From assembly GCF_001942345.1 (NCBI RefSeq), contig NZ_MKKI01000011.1, positions 62,001-126,000 on the forward strand: a stretch of DNA of 64,000 bases, written 5' to 3'. Below, in pieces: positions 10,349 to 19,921 of this stretch (within the stretch, counting starts at the first letter, position 1; every line of letters begins with the position of its first letter). The DNA comes from Corynebacterium sp. CNJ-954 (GTDB lineage Bacteria; Actinomycetota; Actinomycetes; Mycobacteriales; Mycobacteriaceae). The notes under the pieces were generated by a model. It had not been told where the DNA came from. It did not search any database and saw only the letters and a list, made by a program, of their open reading frames with translations. The translations under genes and the position numbers were made by a program.

Positions 10349-10873
10349 CTACCGGGCACCGGCCTCCAGGATCCCTGTGACCAGGCGGTAGCTGGCTGCG
10401 TACGCTCCTGCCCACTCGCTGGCGCGCGGTCCCGCGACATTCACCACGAGTCCGCTCCCCTGTTGTCGCAGCCACTCTGACACGTCGTGTACAACTACGG
10501 TCATATTGCTCCGGTCCCATGCTGAGGCATCGAGAACCAGGTGGGGACGCTGCCAATGGCGTGCGAATCCCACCGTCAGGTCGGTACCCGGCGACGTCCC
10601 GCCCGGAGCGGTCAGTATGAGCGAGATGTCACTGTCACGGACGTTCCACCCGGTGCGTTGCCTCGTCCCTGACGACGGAGTCTCCGTCAACTCCGGGTAC
10701 TCCGCGAGGAGCCCCGGAGGTGCCGGGTGATCCTCCGCCCACCCGCCTGCAGGACACCAGCCCGCGACGGGAATATCAGCAGCTCGGGCAGCATCGAGCG
10801 CTCCCCTGTCGACACCTGACTGACCGCCGGAGCGGATGGTGGCGATCATCTGCGCTACTTTCCTCGGGTACAC
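10349..10873 (-). CDS. putative molybdenum carrier / SLOG-like (cpYpsA) protein
   Basis: A 174-residue soluble protein with the signature of the 'putative molybdenum carrier' Pfam family, now placed in the SLOG nucleotide-binding Rossmann superfamily: 'IRSGGQSGVDRGALDAARAA' at the N-terminus, 'VAGWCPAGGWAED', 'ELTETPSSGTRQRTGWNVRD' and 'SLILTAPGGTSPGTDLTVGF'. SLOG proteins bind nucleotide-derived ligands and are often found near defence genes; the molybdenum role is weakly supported. ATG 10849 ('MIATIRSGG') is an alternative start closer to the conserved region. Its position beside hipBA and helicase genes suits an accessory role. Confidence 0.75.
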   Translation of the reverse strand: MYPRKVAQMIATIRSGGQSGVDRGALDAARAADIPVAGWCPAGGWAEDHPAPPGLLAEYPELTETPSSGTRQRTGWNVRDSDISLILTAPGGTSPGTDLTVGFARHWQRPHLVLDASAWDRSNMTVVVHDVSEWLRQQGSGLVVNVAGPRASEWAGAYAASYRLVTGILEAGAR

Positions 10874-11258: not shown

Positions 11259-12477
11259 TCATTCCAGCCGGCCGACCCACCGCTCAGTCGTCTCCAGCAG
11301 CCGCGTCACCACGGAACTCCCGTACCTGCTGACGCTGTCCACGTCTGCCGCCGCATGCATACTATCGATGAGACGCGCCATCTGCCGATCAATCTCCGTG
11401 ACCATCCAGTCAGGATCCACATGGAGGTGCATCGCCTCGTCAACCCACCGTCGGCGGGTCAGTAGGGACACCCGGAAGATGCCGTCGATCCCCATCGACA
11501 GATCGCCGGAACCCCCGTCGGTGTAAGCAAGATGGGAGTTGACGTCGTACAGCGGGGCAAGCCGCACGTTCCCACCACGCAGAACAACTGAGTAATTCCG
11601 CGCATGGGCGTCTGTTCCGCAGATCAACCAGTTGAAGGTCAACGCCTGGACAAGGCGCCGAGTGTCTTCATCGGCGTTACTGCTGAGATTCGCGATGAGT
11701 TCCGCCACCTCGCGTGCTCCCGCGCCCCACTGTGACTCATACTTTCTGAATGGCGGTGTCCCTGTTGCCTGGCACATATCCTCCTGGTGCACGCGGACCC
11801 ACCGGCCGTCAGGAAGACGAGCGCGGTCGTAGCGTTCGACGACGAGACAGCGGAGACCGTCAAATTCACTGACGTCGACATGCGCTGCGCTCAACCCCAG
11901 TCGGCGAGCGGTGCCCATCGTAACGGCCTCGACAAGATCCTGGTCCTCCATACCGGGGTTTGCCGGCTTAAGGATGTGCGTCGACGGTGACGCACCGTGG
12001 GGGCTTGACCACACACTCCCGTCCTTCCGGAGGGCGATCTTCGCCTGCACACCGGCGAGTGAGAATTTTCCGTCCGGCACGGCTTCCGACGAGACCGGAA
12101 GATCCGCCATCGCTCTACGCAACATGTCGCCGATCTCGGAGTTGTCCACGGGTCGCAGGTCGCCACTGCGTGACAACGCTGCCTCCAGTCGCTCGGGACG
12201 GACAAACTGTGCCGCACCGGCAACATCCTCTCCGACAAAGCGCAGAAGTGCAAAGGTGCTTGAGTCCTTAGCTATGGAGAATCGTCGGCGCCATTGACGG
12301 AGAGCCTCGGGACGGTCCGGGCATAGTGACCGAGAGCGGAGTGAACGTCCCGACACCGGAATCCGAGTATCGCAGCCTCATCTTCTTCGGCCCGTTCCGC
12401 TGGATGTCGCCGACGACCCTGCCGTTCATTACGACGGCCAGGGTTTCTTCGGGGCGAGGGCCGAGCCGCGCGCTCAA
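11259..12477 (-). pseudogene. hipA: HipA-type Ser/Thr kinase toxin, disrupted near the N-terminus
   Basis: HipA kinases phosphorylate GltX or related targets and cause dormancy; HipB neutralises them. The gene begins at TTG 12477, overlapping the hipB stop. The first frame gives the HipA N1 domain ('LAVVMNGRVVGDIQRNG', 'GTFTPLSVTMPG') and then runs off. The second frame resumes with 'PEALRQWRRRF', 'GEDVAGAAQFV', 'SLAGVQAKIAL' (Gly-rich loop), 'LVVERYDR', 'FNWLICGTDAHARNYSVVLR' (catalytic Asp/Asn) and 'LAPLYDVNSHLAY' (DFG-like Asp). At the junction (about 12325-12345) the frame changes, and roughly 15-20 residues usual in this family appear to be missing, so this is a deletion rather than a single-base error. 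Confidence 0.75.
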
Positions 12478-12767
12478 TGCTCCAGCGTCCTGTCAAGCAA
12501 CTCATTCAGGTCAATGAGGTCGTCATCGGGGTCTGGGTGTGGCGCAGGCTCCGGCGACATCTCCACGGTAACCTCCAGGGCGCTCAACACCCGATAGACC
12601 ATGTCCAACGGCGCAGTCCACTTGTCTCCCAACTCAAACGCATTGAGCCACTGGCGTCCAACCTTCGCCTTCGCCGCCAACGCTGACTGCGTGACCCCCA
12701 GCTCCAGACGGACATCCCTGAGCAGAGGCCCGAGATCGTCGGGGCGATGGACACTTATTGTCGTCAT
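12474..12767 (-). CDS. hipB: HipB-like XRE-family antitoxin/repressor
   Basis: A 97-residue DNA-binding antitoxin. The helix-turn-helix lies at about residues 12-66 ('LGPLLRDVRLELGVTQSALA', 'AKVGRQWLNAFELG'). It is followed by an acidic tail ending 'LIDLNELLDRTLEH'. The ATG at 12767 was chosen because the longer frame reads through Arg/Cys-rich sequence with no similarity and because the start lies inside a perfect palindrome, as expected for autoregulation. The stop overlaps the TTG of hipA by 4 nt. Since hipA is broken, hipB may persist only as a repressor. Confidence 0.8.
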   Translation of the reverse strand: MTTISVHRPDDLGPLLRDVRLELGVTQSALAAKAKVGRQWLNAFELGDKWTAPLDMVYRVLSALEVTVEMSPEPAPHPDPDDDLIDLNELLDRTLEH

Positions 12768-12801
12768 GCAGCGACAATACGATATGTCGCCGTATGGCGA
12801 C
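12757..12801. promoter_or_regulatory. HipB operator array (overlapping palindromes)
   Basis: Two perfect palindromes share the motif TGTCGC/GCGACA. ATTGTCG-8 nt-CGACAAT spans 12757-12778 and covers the hipB start codon; GTCGCC-GTAT-GGCGAC spans 12786-12801. The inner half-sites GCGACA (12771-12776) and TGTCGC (12785-12790) form a third inverted pair. The array lies between hipB and the divergent mksF/jetA remnant that starts at 12863, so it could once have governed both. Confidence 0.6.
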
Positions 12802-12862
12802 TTGCACTCACGAGACGCCTGTCCTCCTCCCCGTGATGAGACCACATGGAACAATGGCGCCC

Positions 12863-14178
12863 ATGAGCATCGAAGCCCGGGCACTGTCAGTGGCCCGCCT
12901 GCAGTAGGCGTCTCCCGCTGTCACGCTTCTGCGCAGTTCCATGGCCCCGGCGCTGCTGGCGATGGTCGACGAGCACTTCCTCCCAGGGCACCCGCCAACG
13001 CCCGGCGACCGAAGTATACGAACTTCTCAATGCAGACCTCCGCGCACTCACCGGTCACCACCCCGGCATCTTCGATCTGCCCCGCTCGGCAGCGACCGCC
13101 ACCCGGGTGGAATCCTTGACCGACTCCCTGCGCAACCTGGCCCGTGACATCGACCCCGATATCGCTACGCGCCTGCAAACCCTGCAGGATCAACGCGATT
13201 GATCTCGACCGGCAGATCGAACGTGTCGAATACCGCGGCTACGAGGTCCTCGGTCCGTCCCAGGTCGCCGAGCGCGTCGCCGACATCCTCGACCAAGCGT
13301 CGGCGATCCCCGGTGACTTCGCCCGGGCGTCACGCGACCTGGAGGACCTGAACCGTTCACTGCGCCGGCAACTCCTCGACTCCGACTACTCACGCGGCGA
13401 TGTCCTGGACGAGATCTTCGACGGAGTGGACCTCATCGGAGAGTCCGACGCCGAACGCAGTTTCAACGGTTTCTACCGTGTCCTGCTCGACAAGGAGCGA
13501 GCCGCGTGGATCCGACCGGCGGATCGACAACGTCCTCACCTCTCCGCAGGGCGCGGACCTCCCGACACTCGCAACTACGTGACCTCCGAAGAGTTCGCCG
13601 AGGACCGGCGCATGGTGGAACTCCTGCGGTCCGCCCGTACCGCCGCGGCAGACGCTGTCTCCGGCGGCGGGCAGGACGTCCGCACCTACCGGAAGATGGA
13701 GGCACCCCTGGTACGGATCGGTATGCCGGGGACGTCGGTGAGCACGCTGTCGCTGCGCAACCCCGGGGACGAGACGGTGGAAAACGCCCCCGGCACCGTC
13801 ACCGAGGCGACCGTAGGCACCGCCGAACTGCTCGCCGCCGTCCGTGTCAGCGAGATCGATGTGGCGGAGCTGCACGACAACATCGATGCCACGCTGTCCG
13901 CGGACACAGGCCGGACCACTGCATCCGTCGTCACCGTCCTTCATCATCACCCCGCCAGCCAGGGCCTGGCATCCGTGGTCGGACCGCTGCACCTGGCGAT
14001 CCGCCATGGCACACCCGCCGACGGAGTGGAGCGGGTCACCTGGGACGATGCCGACGGTCAGCGACGCACCGCCACCATCTCCCGCTGGATCTTCGCCGCA
14101 GACTCCCCAGGCACCCGAGACACCTCCAGAAACCGAGAGTCACGCATGACTATGCGTCGGAGAACGGTGAGCCTGTGA
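12863..14178 (+). pseudogene. DUF3375 protein (MksF/JetA of Wadjet-type systems), multiply disrupted
   Basis: JetA/MksF is the kleisin-like subunit of the SMC-like MksBEFG (Wadjet) complex that excludes plasmids. The start 'MSIEARALSVARLQ' is intact, but TAG follows at 12905. The frame continues as 'PAVTLLRSSMAPALLAMVDE', shifts near 13008 to 'EVYELLNADLRALTGHHPG', and a middle block is missing before 'VESLTDSLRNLARDID'. A stop lies at 13198. The third frame then gives 'EVLGPSQVAERVADILDQAS', 'LRRQLLDSDYSRGDVLDEIF' and 'SFNGFYRVLLDKERAAWI'. Another deletion follows before 'YVTSEEFAEDRRMVELLRSA', and the conserved end includes 'PASQGLASVVGPLHLAIR'. No mksE, mksB or mksG sequence follows. With a stop, at least two frame changes and two internal losses, the gene is certainly non-functional. 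Confidence 0.8.
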
Positions 14179-14506
14179 GACCGAGCCGGGAGAACTCGGC
14201 GCCGAGGAGCCGGGTGTCGAACGGCGCGTTGTGGGCGACGAAGACGCGACCGCTGAGTTGCTCGGCGAGTTCACCGGCAATGTCGCCGAAGGTCGGGGCA
14301 TGCACCAGGACGCTGCCGCTGATGCCGTGGATCCGGGTCTTCCGAATGTCACGCTGACGGTTGACCAGCGTGGTCCAGCGGTCGGTGACAGTGCCGTCGG
14401 GGGCTGCATGGACGACGGCTACCTCAAGAATGCGTTCCCGGTTGCTGAATCCGGTGGTCTCCACGTCAACGACGGCGAAGGGGCTGCGATGAGTCTGAGT
14501 GGTCAC
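14150..14506 (-). pseudogene. DnaQ-like 3'-5' exonuclease, C-terminally truncated
   Basis: A 118-residue fragment of a DEDD exonuclease. Exo I is 'FAVVDVETTGFSNRERILEV' with the DxE pair, and Exo II is 'RVFVAHNAPFDTRLLGAEFS' with the Asp. The Exo III motif (H/Y-x4-D), which supplies the last metal-binding Asp, is absent because the frame ends just after 'LGLTGSPFSDA'. Family members are usually 180 residues or more. The truncation point coincides with the end of the DUF3375 remnant, so one deletion or rearrangement probably joined the two genes. As it stands the product should lack nuclease activity. Confidence 0.65.
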
Positions 14507-14592
14507 CGAGAGGAAACTATATCGTGCAGGACGGACATGGAAGGCTGGTAGACCGTGGGTCTGCCCACCGTGAGCGGCCAGTTCCTACCTGC

Positions 14593-15288
14593 TCACTCAC
14601 CGATCAGTGACGTGTCGTTCACCCTTTCGACAGACCACTCCCCGGCTGCGTAGACGAGCGTGGATACCGAAGCGTTCTTGATCGCTTCGTTGAACGGATG
14701 TCCCAGAGCATGCAGCACAACCAGGATGGTGACCCCGCTGGAGACAACGAGCACATTCTCATGCCCCCTGGTCCCTGCCTCAGCGACAATGTCCTCGAAC
14801 TCCTGAAGCACACGGGCTGCCACCTCCCGTGCTGTCTCCGTCGGCATCGTCGGAACGGGATTCGCCTCCTCCAGAGACTCGAATAGTTTGAGGAGCACGG
14901 ATTCTCCGTCAACCCTCTCCTCCAACCCCGCGAGCGAGTCGACGTTCGCCTGTGCGAGCACGGCGTCGTACATCACCCGGTTGGGGCCTCCCTCGAATCC
15001 TCCGAAAGACATCTCACGCAGGTTCGGCGTCACCGTCACCGGGATATCCACGCCCATAACGGCGAGAACCGTTTCCGCAGTTTCTCGGTGGCGAACCATG
15101 TCCGCGGAGTAGGCGGCGTCGATCGTCATGTCGGCATCGCTGAGTGCTGCACCCAGTCGGACCGCGTCCTCCTTACCCGCTGTTGTCAGCGGCGAGTCCG
15201 ACCAACCCTGCACACGGTCCAACTCGTTCAGCCAGGTCCGTCCGTGCCGGGTCAGGTAGATCGTCACAGTCTGCGGCGCGTGCGTCAT
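14593..15288 (-). CDS. histidine phosphatase family protein
   Basis: A 231-residue protein of the phosphoglycerate mutase-like branch. 'TIYLTRHGRTWLNELDRVQG' at residues 9-28 carries the catalytic RHG; 'DSPLTTAGKEDAVRLGAAL', 'AYSADMVRHRETAETVLAV' (conserved Arg) and 'LREMSFGGFEGG' follow, and 'NVLVVSSGVTILVVLHALG' holds the C-terminal conserved region. In that last motif the usual His of 'SHG' is replaced by Ser (SSG), which is odd for an active phosphatase. The ATG at 15288 has GAGAGAAG just upstream; the longer frame from 15534 adds 82 residues without similarity. Substrate unknown. Confidence 0.75.
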   Translation of the reverse strand: MTHAPQTVTIYLTRHGRTWLNELDRVQGWSDSPLTTAGKEDAVRLGAALSDADMTIDAAYSADMVRHRETAETVLAVMGVDIPVTVTPNLREMSFGGFEGGPNRVMYDAVLAQANVDSLAGLEERVDGESVLLKLFESLEEANPVPTMPTETAREVAARVLQEFEDIVAEAGTRGHENVLVVSSGVTILVVLHALGHPFNEAIKNASVSTLVYAAGEWSVERVNDTSLIGE

Positions 15289-15537
15289 CGAGCTTCTCTC
15301 ATTCAGTCGGTCTCCTCTTTCCGGTACCGGCTGCGCCGGTGTTGTCCGCAACCACACTGTAGATCTCCTGCCCCTCACCTGCTGAGGCAGCCCACCATGG
15401 TCGACACACCACGCCGGTGCGGACAACTGGCACGGGCTGGTCGATGTCCGTAACGGACCATCCTTCGACTTTGTCGACACAGTTTCGGTCGTAAGGTCTA
15501 CGCCCAAGGTGGAAAAGAGCCCGGGCGCCGGCACGAC

Positions 15538-16064: not shown

Positions 16065-18095
16065 TTGCCCCTGCTCCGGACCTCAGGTTCCGACATCCTG
16101 AACAACTTCGCGGGTCCCACCGCCCTCGTTAACGCCATGACCACCAAGGCTTACTTCGACGGTCACGGCCGGGTTTCGCCGGCCGAGGAGCGATCCTGGG
16201 CTGCCAGCATCCCGGCACTCGCCTCGGTACTGGATCAGGCCGGGCTCGGCTGTGTCCCGGTTCTGTTGGAGCACCAGCTCCCGCTGACCTCGAAGCGTGT
16301 GGACGCGATTATCGCCGGGACGCATCCTGTCACGGGTCAGCCGTCCTATATCGTCGTCGAGCTGAAGCAGTGGTCACGTGCCGCACTCTTCGAGGACAGC
16401 ACCGAACTGGTGGAGATCCCTGGCATCCTCGGCCCACCCCGCTCACACCCTGTCCTCCAGGTCGACGACTACCGGTCGTATCTCACGGGCTTCGCCACCG
16501 TCCTTGCTGGTCATCCCGAACGCGTCCACGGGGTCGCCTACCTGCACAACGCGACATCGCGCACCGACATCGACGGGTTGGATGACCTCCACCCGACTAC
16601 TGTTCCTGAGTCGGCGACACGGTTGTTCACCGGTGCCGACATCGGCGCATTCAGCGACTTCCTCACCTCACGGATCGCGCCGTCCGACGCCTCCTCACCG
16701 GCGGACGAGCTGACGAACACCTCCTTCGCCCCGTCCCGCCAGTTGCTCGCCCACGCTGCGACAGAGATCCGGGAGCGCGAGGAATTCGTTCTGATCGACC
16801 GGCAGCACGACGCTGTACGCCTGGTCCTCCACCAGGTCAGGCAGGCCTACGAGTCGGACAACAAACGGGTCATCGTCGTCTCCGGTGGGCCCGGCTCCGG
16901 AAAGTCCGTGGTCGCCCTGTCCTTGCTCGGCGAACTCGCCCGTGACGGACGGCGGGTGCTCCACGCCACCGGCTCGAATGCCTTCACCCAGACCCTGCGG
17001 AAGGTCGCCGGGCACCGCAGCAAGGAAACCCAGCAGCTCTTCAAGTACTTCAACAGTTTCCAGGAGGCGGACAAACACAGTCTCGATGTGTTGGTCGCCG
17101 ACGAGTCACACCGCATCCGCGAGACCTCCACCAGTCGCTACAGCCCGGCCCACCTGAGGGCGATGAAACGGCCACAGCTGGACGAACTGATCGACGTCGC
17201 CCGCGTACCGGTGTTCCTCCTGGACGAGAAACAGGTGGTCCGTCCTGGCGAGGTGGGGTCGCTCCATGAGATCTCCCGCTTCGCCGAGGACAAGGGGCTC
17301 GAGGTGATGCACGTTGAACTGGATGAACAGTTCCGGTGCGGCGGCAGCCTGGCCTACACGAACTGGGTGGAGAGCCTGCTACGGCTTGACACCGACGGTG
17401 GATCCGACGTCCGGGGTTCCAGGATTTCCGCCGCCGCGGGCACCACTGTGCGGAGCGATCTCGACTACGCCGAAGTGCACGGAGTCGCCCACCGCACCAC
17501 CGACGAGGACGGGCCGCCGTTCCTGCCGCCGGACCCGCACGTGTCGGTGACGGTGGCAGAGTCACCGGAGCAGATGGAGTCGTTCCTCCGGAGGAAGCTG
17601 GATGAAGGCTACTCGGCGAGAATGTCAGCCGGTTTCTGCTGGCACTGGTCGAAACCGAGGAAGGGTGACCACGACCTCGTCAACGATGTCCAGCTCGGCG
17701 ACTGGTCGCGCCCGTGGAACAACCCCGAGGACCGGAAGGTCGGTGACGCTCCCCCTCGTTTCCGGTGGGCTACTGGCGACGGTGGTTTCGGACAGATCGG
17801 GTGCATCTACACCGCACAGGGCTTCGAGTACGACTGGTCGGGTGTGATCATCGGCCCTGACCTGGTGTGGAGGGACGGCGACTTCATCACGGTCCGGGCC
17901 CACAACGCCGACCCCGGACTGGCGAAGAAGGACCTCACCGACGACGAGTTCGACACCCTCATCCGGCACGTCTACAAGGTGCTCCTCACCCGCGGGATGC
18001 AGGGGACAGTGATCTACTCCCCCGACCGGCAGACCCGTAACGCGTTGAGGCGGCTGGTCAACGACCACGACGACCACGGTAAGGAGGCAAACTGA
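16065..18095 (+). CDS. PD-(D/E)XK nuclease-SF1 helicase fusion (DUF2075)
   Basis: A 676-residue predicted DNA-processing enzyme. Residues ~60-105 look like a PD-(D/E)XK nuclease core: Glu69, Asp80 ('KRVDAIIAG') and Glu99-x-Lys101 ('YIVVELKQWS'). A DUF2075-type superfamily 1 helicase follows. Walker A 'GGPGSGKS' lies at 274-281, Walker B 'VLVADESH' at 342-349, 'VELDEQFRCGG' near 426, 'IGCIYTAQGFEYDW' near 590 and the arginine-bearing 'LLTRGMQGTVIYSPD' near 648. The TTG start has GGAGAAAG 6 nt upstream; ATG 16137 is a weaker option without an RBS. Its stop shares one base with the start of the next gene (TGATG), with AAGGAGG before it, so the pair is one operon. Both domains appear intact amid decayed neighbours. 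Assignment of the nuclease rests on motifs. Confidence 0.85.
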   Translation: MPLLRTSGSDILNNFAGPTALVNAMTTKAYFDGHGRVSPAEERSWAASIPALASVLDQAGLGCVPVLLEHQLPLTSKRVDAIIAGTHPVTGQPSYIVVELKQWSRAALFEDSTELVEIPGILGPPRSHPVLQVDDYRSYLTGFATVLAGHPERVHGVAYLHNATSRTDIDGLDDLHPTTVPESATRLFTGADIGAFSDFLTSRIAPSDASSPADELTNTSFAPSRQLLAHAATEIREREEFVLIDRQHDAVRLVLHQVRQAYESDNKRVIVVSGGPGSGKSVVALSLLGELARDGRRVLHATGSNAFTQTLRKVAGHRSKETQQLFKYFNSFQEADKHSLDVLVADESHRIRETSTSRYSPAHLRAMKRPQLDELIDVARVPVFLLDEKQVVRPGEVGSLHEISRFAEDKGLEVMHVELDEQFRCGGSLAYTNWVESLLRLDTDGGSDVRGSRISAAAGTTVRSDLDYAEVHGVAHRTTDEDGPPFLPPDPHVSVTVAESPEQMESFLRRKLDEGYSARMSAGFCWHWSKPRKGDHDLVNDVQLGDWSRPWNNPEDRKVGDAPPRFRWATGDGGFGQIGCIYTAQGFEYDWSGVIIGPDLVWRDGDFITVRAHNADPGLAKKDLTDDEFDTLIRHVYKVLLTRGMQGTVIYSPDRQTRNALRRLVNDHDDHGKEAN

Positions 18096-19921
18096 TGTCT
18101 TCCTCCGCACCGTCGGACTCCCCGTTGACCGCACATTCCTACGAGATCAGGACGTACGCGTTCTCGCAGGACGGACACCGCGCCCTTCATCTTGACACCA
18201 CGATGCACGACTGGCCTGTGGTGTACGTGCTGCACCGGCCCGCCACCTCGTCCAAGGGCCAGGGCGAGGTCTACATCGGCGAATCGCTGAACATGGACAA
18301 GCGTTTCGGTGACCATCTGAAGAACGAGGCGAAAGCGCACCTCGACGTGGCCGAGGTCATTGTCGACGACACCTTCAACAAGTCCTCCTGCCTGGACCTG
18401 GAGTCTTTCCTGATCAACCTCAGTTCGGGAGACGAGTCGAACAGGACGCTGAACAGCAATGCCGGTCAGCAGGAGAAGAACTACTACAACCGCTCGTACT
18501 ACCAACTGCGGTTCCGGGAGATTTTCGACGATCTCCGGGCGAAAGGCATCTTCTCGAAGTCGATCCAGCAGATCGAGAACTCCGAGATGTTCAAGTATTC
18601 GCCGTTCAAGTCACTCAATGAGGACCAGATGTCGGTGGTCAGCGACATCCTGGACGGGCTGGTCGAGGACTTCGCGTCACCGCCCGACGAAAACCAGGTC
18701 GCCGTGGTGCAGGGGGACCCGGGAACGGGAAAGACCATCGTCGCCACCTTCCTGATGAAGCTACTGGCAGACCTCGGTTCCTTCGTCGACGACACGGACG
18801 AGAAGAGAGAGTCGCTCTTCGAAGACTTCTACCTGGACGACGTGCGGGCGCTCTTCCGGAACAGGAGGATCGGACTGGTGGTTCCCATGCAGGATCTGCG
18901 TAAGACACTGACCCGGGTCTTCGCCTCAACCCCGGGACTGTCTGCGGAGATGGTCCGCAGCCCACGCGAAGTGGCCCTTGATGCTGAACGCTATGACCTG
19001 TTGATCGTGGATGAGGCCCACCGTCTCAGCCAGTTCGGAGCCCAGTCGATCGGCGCGTTGACCAAGGAGTTCCGCGAGATCAACGAGAGGCTCTTCCACG
19101 GTGAGCGTCCGGCGGCGTCCCAGTTGGACTGGCTTCGGGAGCGGTCGGACAACACCATCCTGTTGGTGGACACGTCCCAGACGGTGAAACCGATCGACCT
19201 GTCGACGTCGGTGTTGCGGGCACTCATCGATGCCCGGGATGCTGATCACAGGCGCGAGTATGTGCTGCATTCGCAGATGCGTTCAATCGGCGGCAATGAC
19301 TACATCGACTACGTCAAGCAGGTGCTCTCGTCCTATCCACCGGAGGCGCGGACGGACTTCGGCCCCTATCAGATCGGTCTCGTCGACGATCCACGTACTC
19401 TCGTCGACCTGATTCGGACGAAGAATGATGCCCACGGGTTGTCCAGGGTGGTGGCGGGCTATGCCTGGGACTGGGTGAGTAAGAAGAACCCGGAGAAGTT
19501 CGACATTCACCTCGACCACGGCGTGCAACTGAGGTGGAATTCGACGGTCACCGACTGGATCAATTCGTCGAAGTCCTCCGACGAGGCCGGGTCGATCCAC
19601 ACTGTCCAGGGGCACGACCTGAACTACGCAGGCGTGATCTTCGGTCGGGATCTGCAGTACGACCTCGAGAATGAGCGACTGATCGTCAGTCGCGAGGACT
19701 ACCGGGACAAGACGGGCAAGCGGAACAACAAGCTCGCCGGTCGCGACACCACCGATGAGATGTTGCTGGAGTTCGTCACGAACATCTACTACGTACTGAT
19801 GACCCGCGGGGTCCACGGGACCTTCATCCATGTGGTTGACCCCGGCTTGCGCGAGTACCTGGGCAGGTATTTTCCGGTGTTAACCCCGAGAGCGGAAAGT
19901 CCCAATTGGACGTTACGATAG
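18095..19921 (+). CDS. GIY-YIG nuclease-SF1 helicase fusion (DUF2075)
   Basis: A 608-residue second fusion. Residues ~40-130 are a GIY-YIG domain: 'VVYVLH' (42-47, GIY position), 'GEVYIGES' (Y60-I61-G62), Arg70, His74 and Glu103 in 'CLDLESFLI' as the likely metal-binding Glu. The helicase half has Walker A 'GDPGTGKT' (207-214), Walker B '[15 protein letters not shown]' (about 301-315), the switch-like '[11 protein letters not shown]', '[10 protein letters not shown]', '[17 protein letters not shown]' and '[17 protein letters not shown]'. It starts one base inside the stop of the previous gene. Its stop overlaps the convergent CoA-transferase gene by 9 nt with no terminator between. The predicted job is DNA-dependent ATPase/translocase action coupled to cleavage, perhaps defence or repair. 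Confidence 0.88.

Follow-up and report, generated by a model that had tools for sequence, protein, structure and literature searches.

A candidate nuclease-helicase gene pair of Corynebacterium carrying two different N-terminal nuclease domains

AdnAB of mycobacteria is a machine of two subunits, each of which combines a motor with a nuclease, and its two nucleases are both RecB-like and C-terminal. Here we describe two adjacent genes, P0001 and P0002, located in a 64,000-nt stretch of Corynebacterium sp. CNJ-954 (contig NZ_MKKI01000011.1, positions 62,001 to 126,000; hereafter the window), each encoding a superfamily 1 (SF1) helicase motor preceded by a putative nuclease domain. In contrast to AdnAB, the two nucleases are N-terminal and differ from each other, being PD-(D/E)XK-like in P0001 and of the GIY-YIG type in P0002, and the likeness to AdnAB is one of architecture. 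On balance, we lean towards reading the pair as a single, translationally coupled nuclease-helicase module directed against invaders (phage or plasmid), where a second nuclease-helicase can take the place of a MazG-like enzyme.

Other described systems share part of this arrangement. Hachiman (HamAB) is likewise a two-protein nuclease-helicase complex, active in defence; its nuclease and helicase reside on separate subunits, whereas both are present on each protein of our pair. The human proteins SLFN11 and SLFN14 have in common with the pair the motor fold and a nuclease ahead of the motor, yet the Schlafen N-terminal nuclease is a different one and the protein is single. Single proteins of family PF09848 (DUF2075, currently named SLFN-g3_helicase, Schlafen group 3, in Pfam) possess the same motor, and the family name covers neither the PD-GIY pair nor the MazG linkage described below. 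Nhi is described as a single-gene nuclease-helicase defence system (PMC12904381). Its profile matched P0001 with 32.9 bits over the motor only (residues 238-429, with residues 240-429 on profile positions 180-334 of 470), and AbiO (31 bits) and GajB similarly gave motor-only or weak matches; what Nhi and AbiO share with the pair is the helicase, these being single-gene nuclease-helicases as opposed to the two proteins with two nuclease types observed here.

The pair was initially picked out by an inspection of the letters and open reading frames without database searches (the sequence-only reading), which had matched it to no named system. PADLOC likewise returned no strong match. The PADLOC profile PDC-S41 aligned with P0001 in pieces (59 bits, best stretch 582-660) and, at E≤1e-10, with every one of the 27 sequences in the P0001 family alignment, and PDC-S14 (28 bits) matched the GIY portion of P0002; each of the two profiles stands for a single-gene candidate that lacks a named system, and their matches to the pair are weak or partial. 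No NCBIfam model matched P0001 or P0002 near any cut-off. In the open-access literature, we found no description of DUF2075 together with GIY-YIG or with MazG, and titles and abstract openings held nothing on the function of DUF2075 or on a system combining GIY-YIG with MazG. DefensePredictor (PMC13092281) counts MazG among the predicted defence domains that still await validation, and PMC10952713 lists GIY-YIG nucleases for PD-T4-3 and PD-lambda-1. We place the pair among nuclease-helicase defence candidates. Through it, a helicase family known mostly as DUF2075 and related to the motors of human Schlafens would become a two-gene module open to testing.

Two nuclease types on one kind of motor

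The two genes and their domains are arranged in the window as follows.

16065..18095, + strand: P0001, PD-(D/E)XK-like domain and SF1 (SLFN-g3) helicase, 676 residues, TTG start, open frame
16173..16679, + strand: PD-(D/E)XK-like domain of P0001, residues 37-205, with E69, D80, E99, K101, Q132 and Y136
16782..18068, + strand: SF1 helicase domain of P0001, residues 240-668 (PF09848, Foldseek, VIA-align)
18081..18087, + strand: AAGGAGG, resembling a ribosome-binding site for P0002 (from the sequence)
18095..19921, + strand: P0002, GIY-YIG domain and SF1 (SLFN-g3) helicase, 608 residues, open frame
18206..18544, + strand: GIY-YIG domain of P0002, residues 38-150 (PF01541, profile search)
18602..19870, + strand: SF1 helicase domain of P0002, residues 170-592 (PF09848)

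Rechecking of coordinates and frames reproduced the layout given by the sequence-only reading, that is, two genes intact in Corynebacterium sp. CNJ-954 and overlapping by one base within a TGATG, the TGA of P0001 (18093-18095) lying over the ATG of P0002 (18095-18097). The same TGATG overlap is found in the pairs of C. kalidii (L031) and of a Corynebacterium metagenome-assembled genome (L032), which together with the source-strain pair make up the trio referred to below. Three comparisons within the trio yielded ratios of nonsynonymous to synonymous substitution (dN/dS, NG86) of 0.15-0.19 for P0001 and 0.09-0.12 for P0002. With values of 0.09-0.19 across both genes, purifying selection acts on P0001 and P0002, as had been supposed from their intactness.

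Both proteins match PF09848 far above the Pfam cut-off of 24 bits (260 bits for P0001 and 202 bits for P0002), with a Walker A motif at residues 274-281 of P0001 and 207-214 of P0002 and a Walker B motif at residues 346-348 and 306-309, respectively, in agreement with the DUF2075-type SF1 helicase initially assigned to each. Using the AlphaFold model of P0001 (predicted local distance difference test, pLDDT, 81; predicted template modelling score, pTM, 0.80), Foldseek placed human SLFN11 at the top (E 1.2e-11) and SLFN14 among the matches, and VIA-align superposed the motor on UvrD (Z 22.4, root-mean-square deviation 3.6, 306 residues) and on SLFN11 (Z 20.3, root-mean-square deviation 3.3, 278 residues; range 240-654). 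Sequence searches of solved structures with P0001 and P0002 gave no good relative (best E 0.066 and none, respectively). A recent tandem duplication as the origin of the two genes was ruled out, the motors being about 25% identical and each having closer relatives elsewhere.

The N-terminal part of P0001 is predicted to be of PD-(D/E)XK type on the basis of motifs, predicted secondary structure and family matches in relatives. Residues E69, D80, E99-x-K101 and Q132-x3-Y136 are invariant among 27 aligned homologues and show single exceptions in a larger set of 45 sequences; QxxxY marks the RecB/Cas4-type members of the PD-(D/E)XK nucleases. The model displays a helix (39-58), three strands (65-71, 78-86 and 93-101), a second helix (129-143) and a further strand (154-160), and this helix-strand-strand-strand-helix-strand order, carrying the motif residues, corresponds to the order of a PD-(D/E)XK core. 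Weak matches to NERD, a PD-(D/E)XK family, were obtained in 4 of 17 P0001 relatives and none in P0001 itself, and the P0001 N-terminus aligns from residue 1 in L031 and L032. The Foldseek and VIA-align lists contained no nuclease-fold match for residues 1-235; the motor fills these lists, so their silence is not evidence against the fold. The core residues Asp80 and Glu99-x-Lys101 named by the sequence-only reading are invariant and fall on the expected predicted elements. That reading had counted on both N-termini modelling as nuclease folds, and nothing here contradicts it; for P0001, the fold is read from motifs, predicted secondary structure and the weak NERD matches in relatives, and no independent fold match was obtained.

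Across 18 homologues of P0002, residues Y44, Y60-x-G62, R70, H74, E103 and N120 do not vary; Tyr60, Gly62, Arg70 and Glu103 are among the residues from which a GIY-YIG domain had originally been proposed. PF01541 (GIY-YIG) matches 18 of 18 homologous N-terminal segments (E≤0.01); on P0002 itself, the score lies just below the cut-off of 22.6 bits for the whole protein (20.3 bits) and just above it for the N-terminal segment alone (23.7 bits). A profile built from these segments retrieves T4 endonuclease II (E 7e-5), with I-TevI and UvrC as weaker matches. The proposal of unlike nucleases mounted on one kind of motor is thus sustained, with PF09848 in both proteins, PD-(D/E)XK motifs in P0001 and GIY-YIG in P0002.

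The similarity to Schlafen proteins raises the alternative of a pair that would cleave RNA, for example tRNA, upon infection and thereby stop growth. SLFN11 heads the Foldseek list for P0001 and SLFN14 matches as well, yet the SLFN11 match is confined to the motor (240-654) and the nuclease domains of both proteins are of other kinds; PD-(D/E)XK and GIY-YIG nucleases are mostly DNA-cutting. We consider this alternative very improbable.

As a coupled module, the pair probably helps to destroy invading DNA. The motors of P0001 and P0002, which we infer to act in one complex, would load on exposed ends or on single-strand/double-strand junctions of such DNA and translocate with ATP, exposing strands, and the PD and GIY domains would then cut the two strands.

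Pairing history and the MazG-like partner

Among 242 Corynebacterium genomes (threshold E≤1e-30), P0001 was detected in 12 and P0002 in 17. Ten of the 12 P0001 homologues are close and full-length (≥51% identity, best segment), and in nine of these ten a GIY-YIG helicase gene lies directly downstream on the same strand (G000, G659, G747, G613, G726, G690, G637, G719 and G803; G659 shares coordinates with L031, G747 is L032, and L156, the same locus as L032, was dropped throughout). The PD gene comes first and the GIY gene second in all paired loci. The conserved adjacency that the sequence-only reading had suggested looking for is accordingly present. Solo PD genes occur in G695 (L152, a close homologue) and G771 (31% identity); the P0001 homologue of G772 is a fragment and was left out of the locus comparison.

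In a tree of 38 GIY-type proteins, the nine paired ones fall into two distant clades, each among MazG-linked or solo relatives, and forcing them into a single clade costs 404 log-likelihood units (approximately unbiased test, p 2.9e-37). The same split appears in a 54-row GIY tree, from which two long branches (L072, L074) and the broken genes L174 and L176-L179 were excluded; none of its 200 bootstrap trees (0%) supports a single origin. The PD partners, in a tree excluding L046 and L101, form one ten-member clade of nine paired proteins and one solo protein (supported by the SH-like approximate likelihood ratio test, SH-aLRT, only). With GIY partners in two clades and PD partners in one, the pairing arose, or had its GIY member swapped, at least twice. 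Between the two lineages, identity is 52-56% for the PD and 24-27% for the GIY proteins. Within the second, six-member lineage (L137, L138, L150, L151, L153 and L154), PD and GIY identities co-vary (r 0.97 over 15 comparisons), and each pair, once formed, was inherited as a unit. The six pairs of this lineage also share a stretch like GGGCCCAACGGACTTCC soon after the PD stop codon and before the GIY gene (a variant in L137), at the position held by the one-base overlap in the trio.

Relatives of either type frequently have a different partner. A phylum sample of 396 genomes contained PF09848 matches in 36, and 29 genomes gave 32 genes with a clear nuclease domain; L079, L081, L082, L083, L105, L108, L110 and the second gene of G446 (L077) stand outside these 32 as distant, unclear or fragmentary PF09848 matches. 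A MazG-like open reading frame (ORF) lies within 230 bp of 17 of the 32 genes (7 of 10 GIY genes and 10 of 22 PD genes), in one case on the other strand, and only one more was seen at a greater distance in these stretches (L086, 7.9 kb). Scanning of genome contigs revealed such an ORF at 16 of 19 loci; the exceptions are the two pairs and one gene truncated by the end of its contig. PF12643 (MazG-like) matches the small protein in five of six stretches, the sixth being out of frame, and a plasmid record annotates it as a nucleotide pyrophosphohydrolase. Three of 16 P0001-type loci of the family sample introduced below also have a MazG-like ORF nearby; that of L091 shares the strand of the P0001-type gene, whereas those of L069 and L094 lie on the other. 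These results show a recurrent link of DUF2075-type nuclease-helicases to MazG-like pyrophosphohydrolases; neither this partner nor its exchange was part of the sequence-only reading.

No MazG-like ORF was found within the window. Among 45 Corynebacterium genomes with a GIY helicase gene, 18 have MazG alongside (one beside a broken gene), nine have the PD gene upstream and 18 have neither, and none of the 45 GIY loci has both neighbours, an outcome with a chance of 0.005 under independence. At the 18 partnerless loci, where open segments of at least 40 residues were scanned, so that a broken MazG could be missed, no shared third upstream gene was found beyond near-copies and the antisense of a divergent exonuclease.

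In many relatives, a single nuclease-helicase of either type adjoins a MazG-like nucleoside triphosphate (NTP) pyrophosphohydrolase; in two separate corynebacterial lineages, the partner position upstream of the GIY protein is instead taken by a P0001-type protein. In the relatives, (d)NTPs or modified nucleotides may be the substrates of the MazG-like enzyme. That the paired loci lack it suggests that it is no longer needed once a second nuclease-helicase is present, or that this protein assumes its role. A further-reaching version, which we put forward tentatively and hold to be distinctly less probable than the module itself, is that of a modular immune system whose GIY-YIG motor exchanges a MazG-like enzyme for a full second nuclease-helicase; the Corynebacterium form would then be an obligate two-motor machine with two unlike nucleases, which would parallel AdnAB in the service of defence and would have been assembled on at least two occasions. 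The alternation of MazG with a second nuclease-helicase offers a clean way to ask what the partner does.

Several results weigh against a joint module. Beyond the genus, P0001 was detected in 40 more genomes of a 201-genome family sample, and in none of the 16 loci examined there does a GIY helicase stand beside the P0001-type gene, indicating that P0001 can work alone. The 18 of 45 corynebacterial GIY genes with neither partner, four of them in broken frames, indicate that MazG is dispensable. The mutual exclusion of MazG and PD at GIY loci is suggestive only, with two pairing lineages behind the nine pairs. On the structural side, a PDB profile search with the P0001 nuclease domain found no relative, and confidence in the P0002 model is low (pLDDT 64, pTM 0.46), so that its fold search was not used for the nuclease. 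Lastly, seven neighbours in L137, L151 and L153 gave no PADLOC match at E≤1e-15. In view of the 18 further GIY loci that lack MazG, and of a defence context limited to part of the paired loci, we slightly lowered our expectation for both the module and the partner exchange.

Such results bear on the possibility of two independent single-protein defence enzymes standing side by side in islands and sharing transcription, with no joint mechanism. P0001 types stand without a neighbouring GIY gene at each of the 16 family loci and in G695 (L152), GIY types lack a PD neighbour in 36 of the 45 corynebacterial genomes, and defence genes cluster; however, the adjacency recurs with GIY partners of two distant clades, always with PD first and on the same strand, MazG is present in no paired locus, and the trio shares its one-base overlap. 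We regard independent action as possible but doubtful.

Genomic context of the pair

Defence activity of the pair, which we infer in part from context, would fit the surroundings of some paired loci. The C. kalidii pair is flanked on one side by Septu ptuB-ptuA and an intact 1160-residue DnaQ-type exonuclease (PDC-S48, 450 bits) and on the other by PDC-M07A/B, pglW and pglX, and the locus is a Septu/BREX-type island. In G726 (L138), JetA, JetC and JetD lie directly upstream of the pair, together with a frame in the JetB position. L154 contains homologues of four Jet proteins at 85-90% identity, JetC and JetD each being in two pieces. In L032, two frames on each side of the pair were tested, and only an exonuclease fragment matched. 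The defence-island context sought since the initial inspection is therefore present in some paired loci (L031 and L138).

A repair or recombination pair resembling AdnAB and acting on broken DNA of the cell itself would account for two motor-nuclease proteins of AdnAB-like architecture and for a motor structurally like UvrD. Against this, the spread is patchy (P0001 in 12 and P0002 in 17 of the 242 genomes of the genus) and defence genes adjoin the pair in L031 and L138, and we judge this explanation unlikely.

Upstream of the pair in the window, outside the two genes, the following remnants serve as context.

12827..14100, + strand: Wadjet jetA remnant, three pieces (tblastn)
14144..14524, - strand: DnaQ-type exonuclease remnant, PDC-S48-like (tblastn, 78.5% over 135 residues)

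The JetA model scores 299 bits on the frame 13144-14178, in two stretches. The sequence-only reading had described nearly every neighbour as broken; this stands for JetA and the exonuclease and does not extend to a histidine phosphatase gene (14593-15534) and a cpYpsA gene, both with good Pfam matches, nor to a nearly complete HipA_C protein.

Plasmids also carry many annotated homologues of both types, P0001 having 25 such records and P0002 having 18. An origin as phage genes is unsupported, four records matching P0002 and three matching P0001 among 50,697 phage records. On viral contigs, the P0001 profile identified seven loci and the P0002 profile at least one confirmed match, which is partial and carries little weight.

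Further observations concern the surrounding genes. A DnaQ-type exonuclease recurs near GIY helicase loci, intact in L031 (2624-6106), as remnants in the source strain and in L032 (4945-5724), and also in L157, L165, L170, L175 and L178. Wadjet jet genes or their remnants lie near the pair in four of the loci examined, namely those of the source strain (12827-14100), L138 (719-7347), L154 (12854-19395) and L031 (93-467). The HipA_C protein (11259-12884) has a helix-turn-helix gene upstream and covers positions 1-202 of the 213-position HipA_C model, which makes its description as broken uncertain, and the cpYpsA gene, of the SLOG family, lies at 10349-10873 near the island.

Tandem PD+PD nuclease-helicase genes were observed in L069-L071, L075 and L076, among them one Hymenobacter plasmid along with three further genomes (L070 3841-7836, L075 8636-12866, L076 8111-12433 and L069 8296-12291). 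In the second PD gene of L075 and L076, ELKRW replaces ELKQW, and the L075 copy lacks the QxxxY tyrosine.

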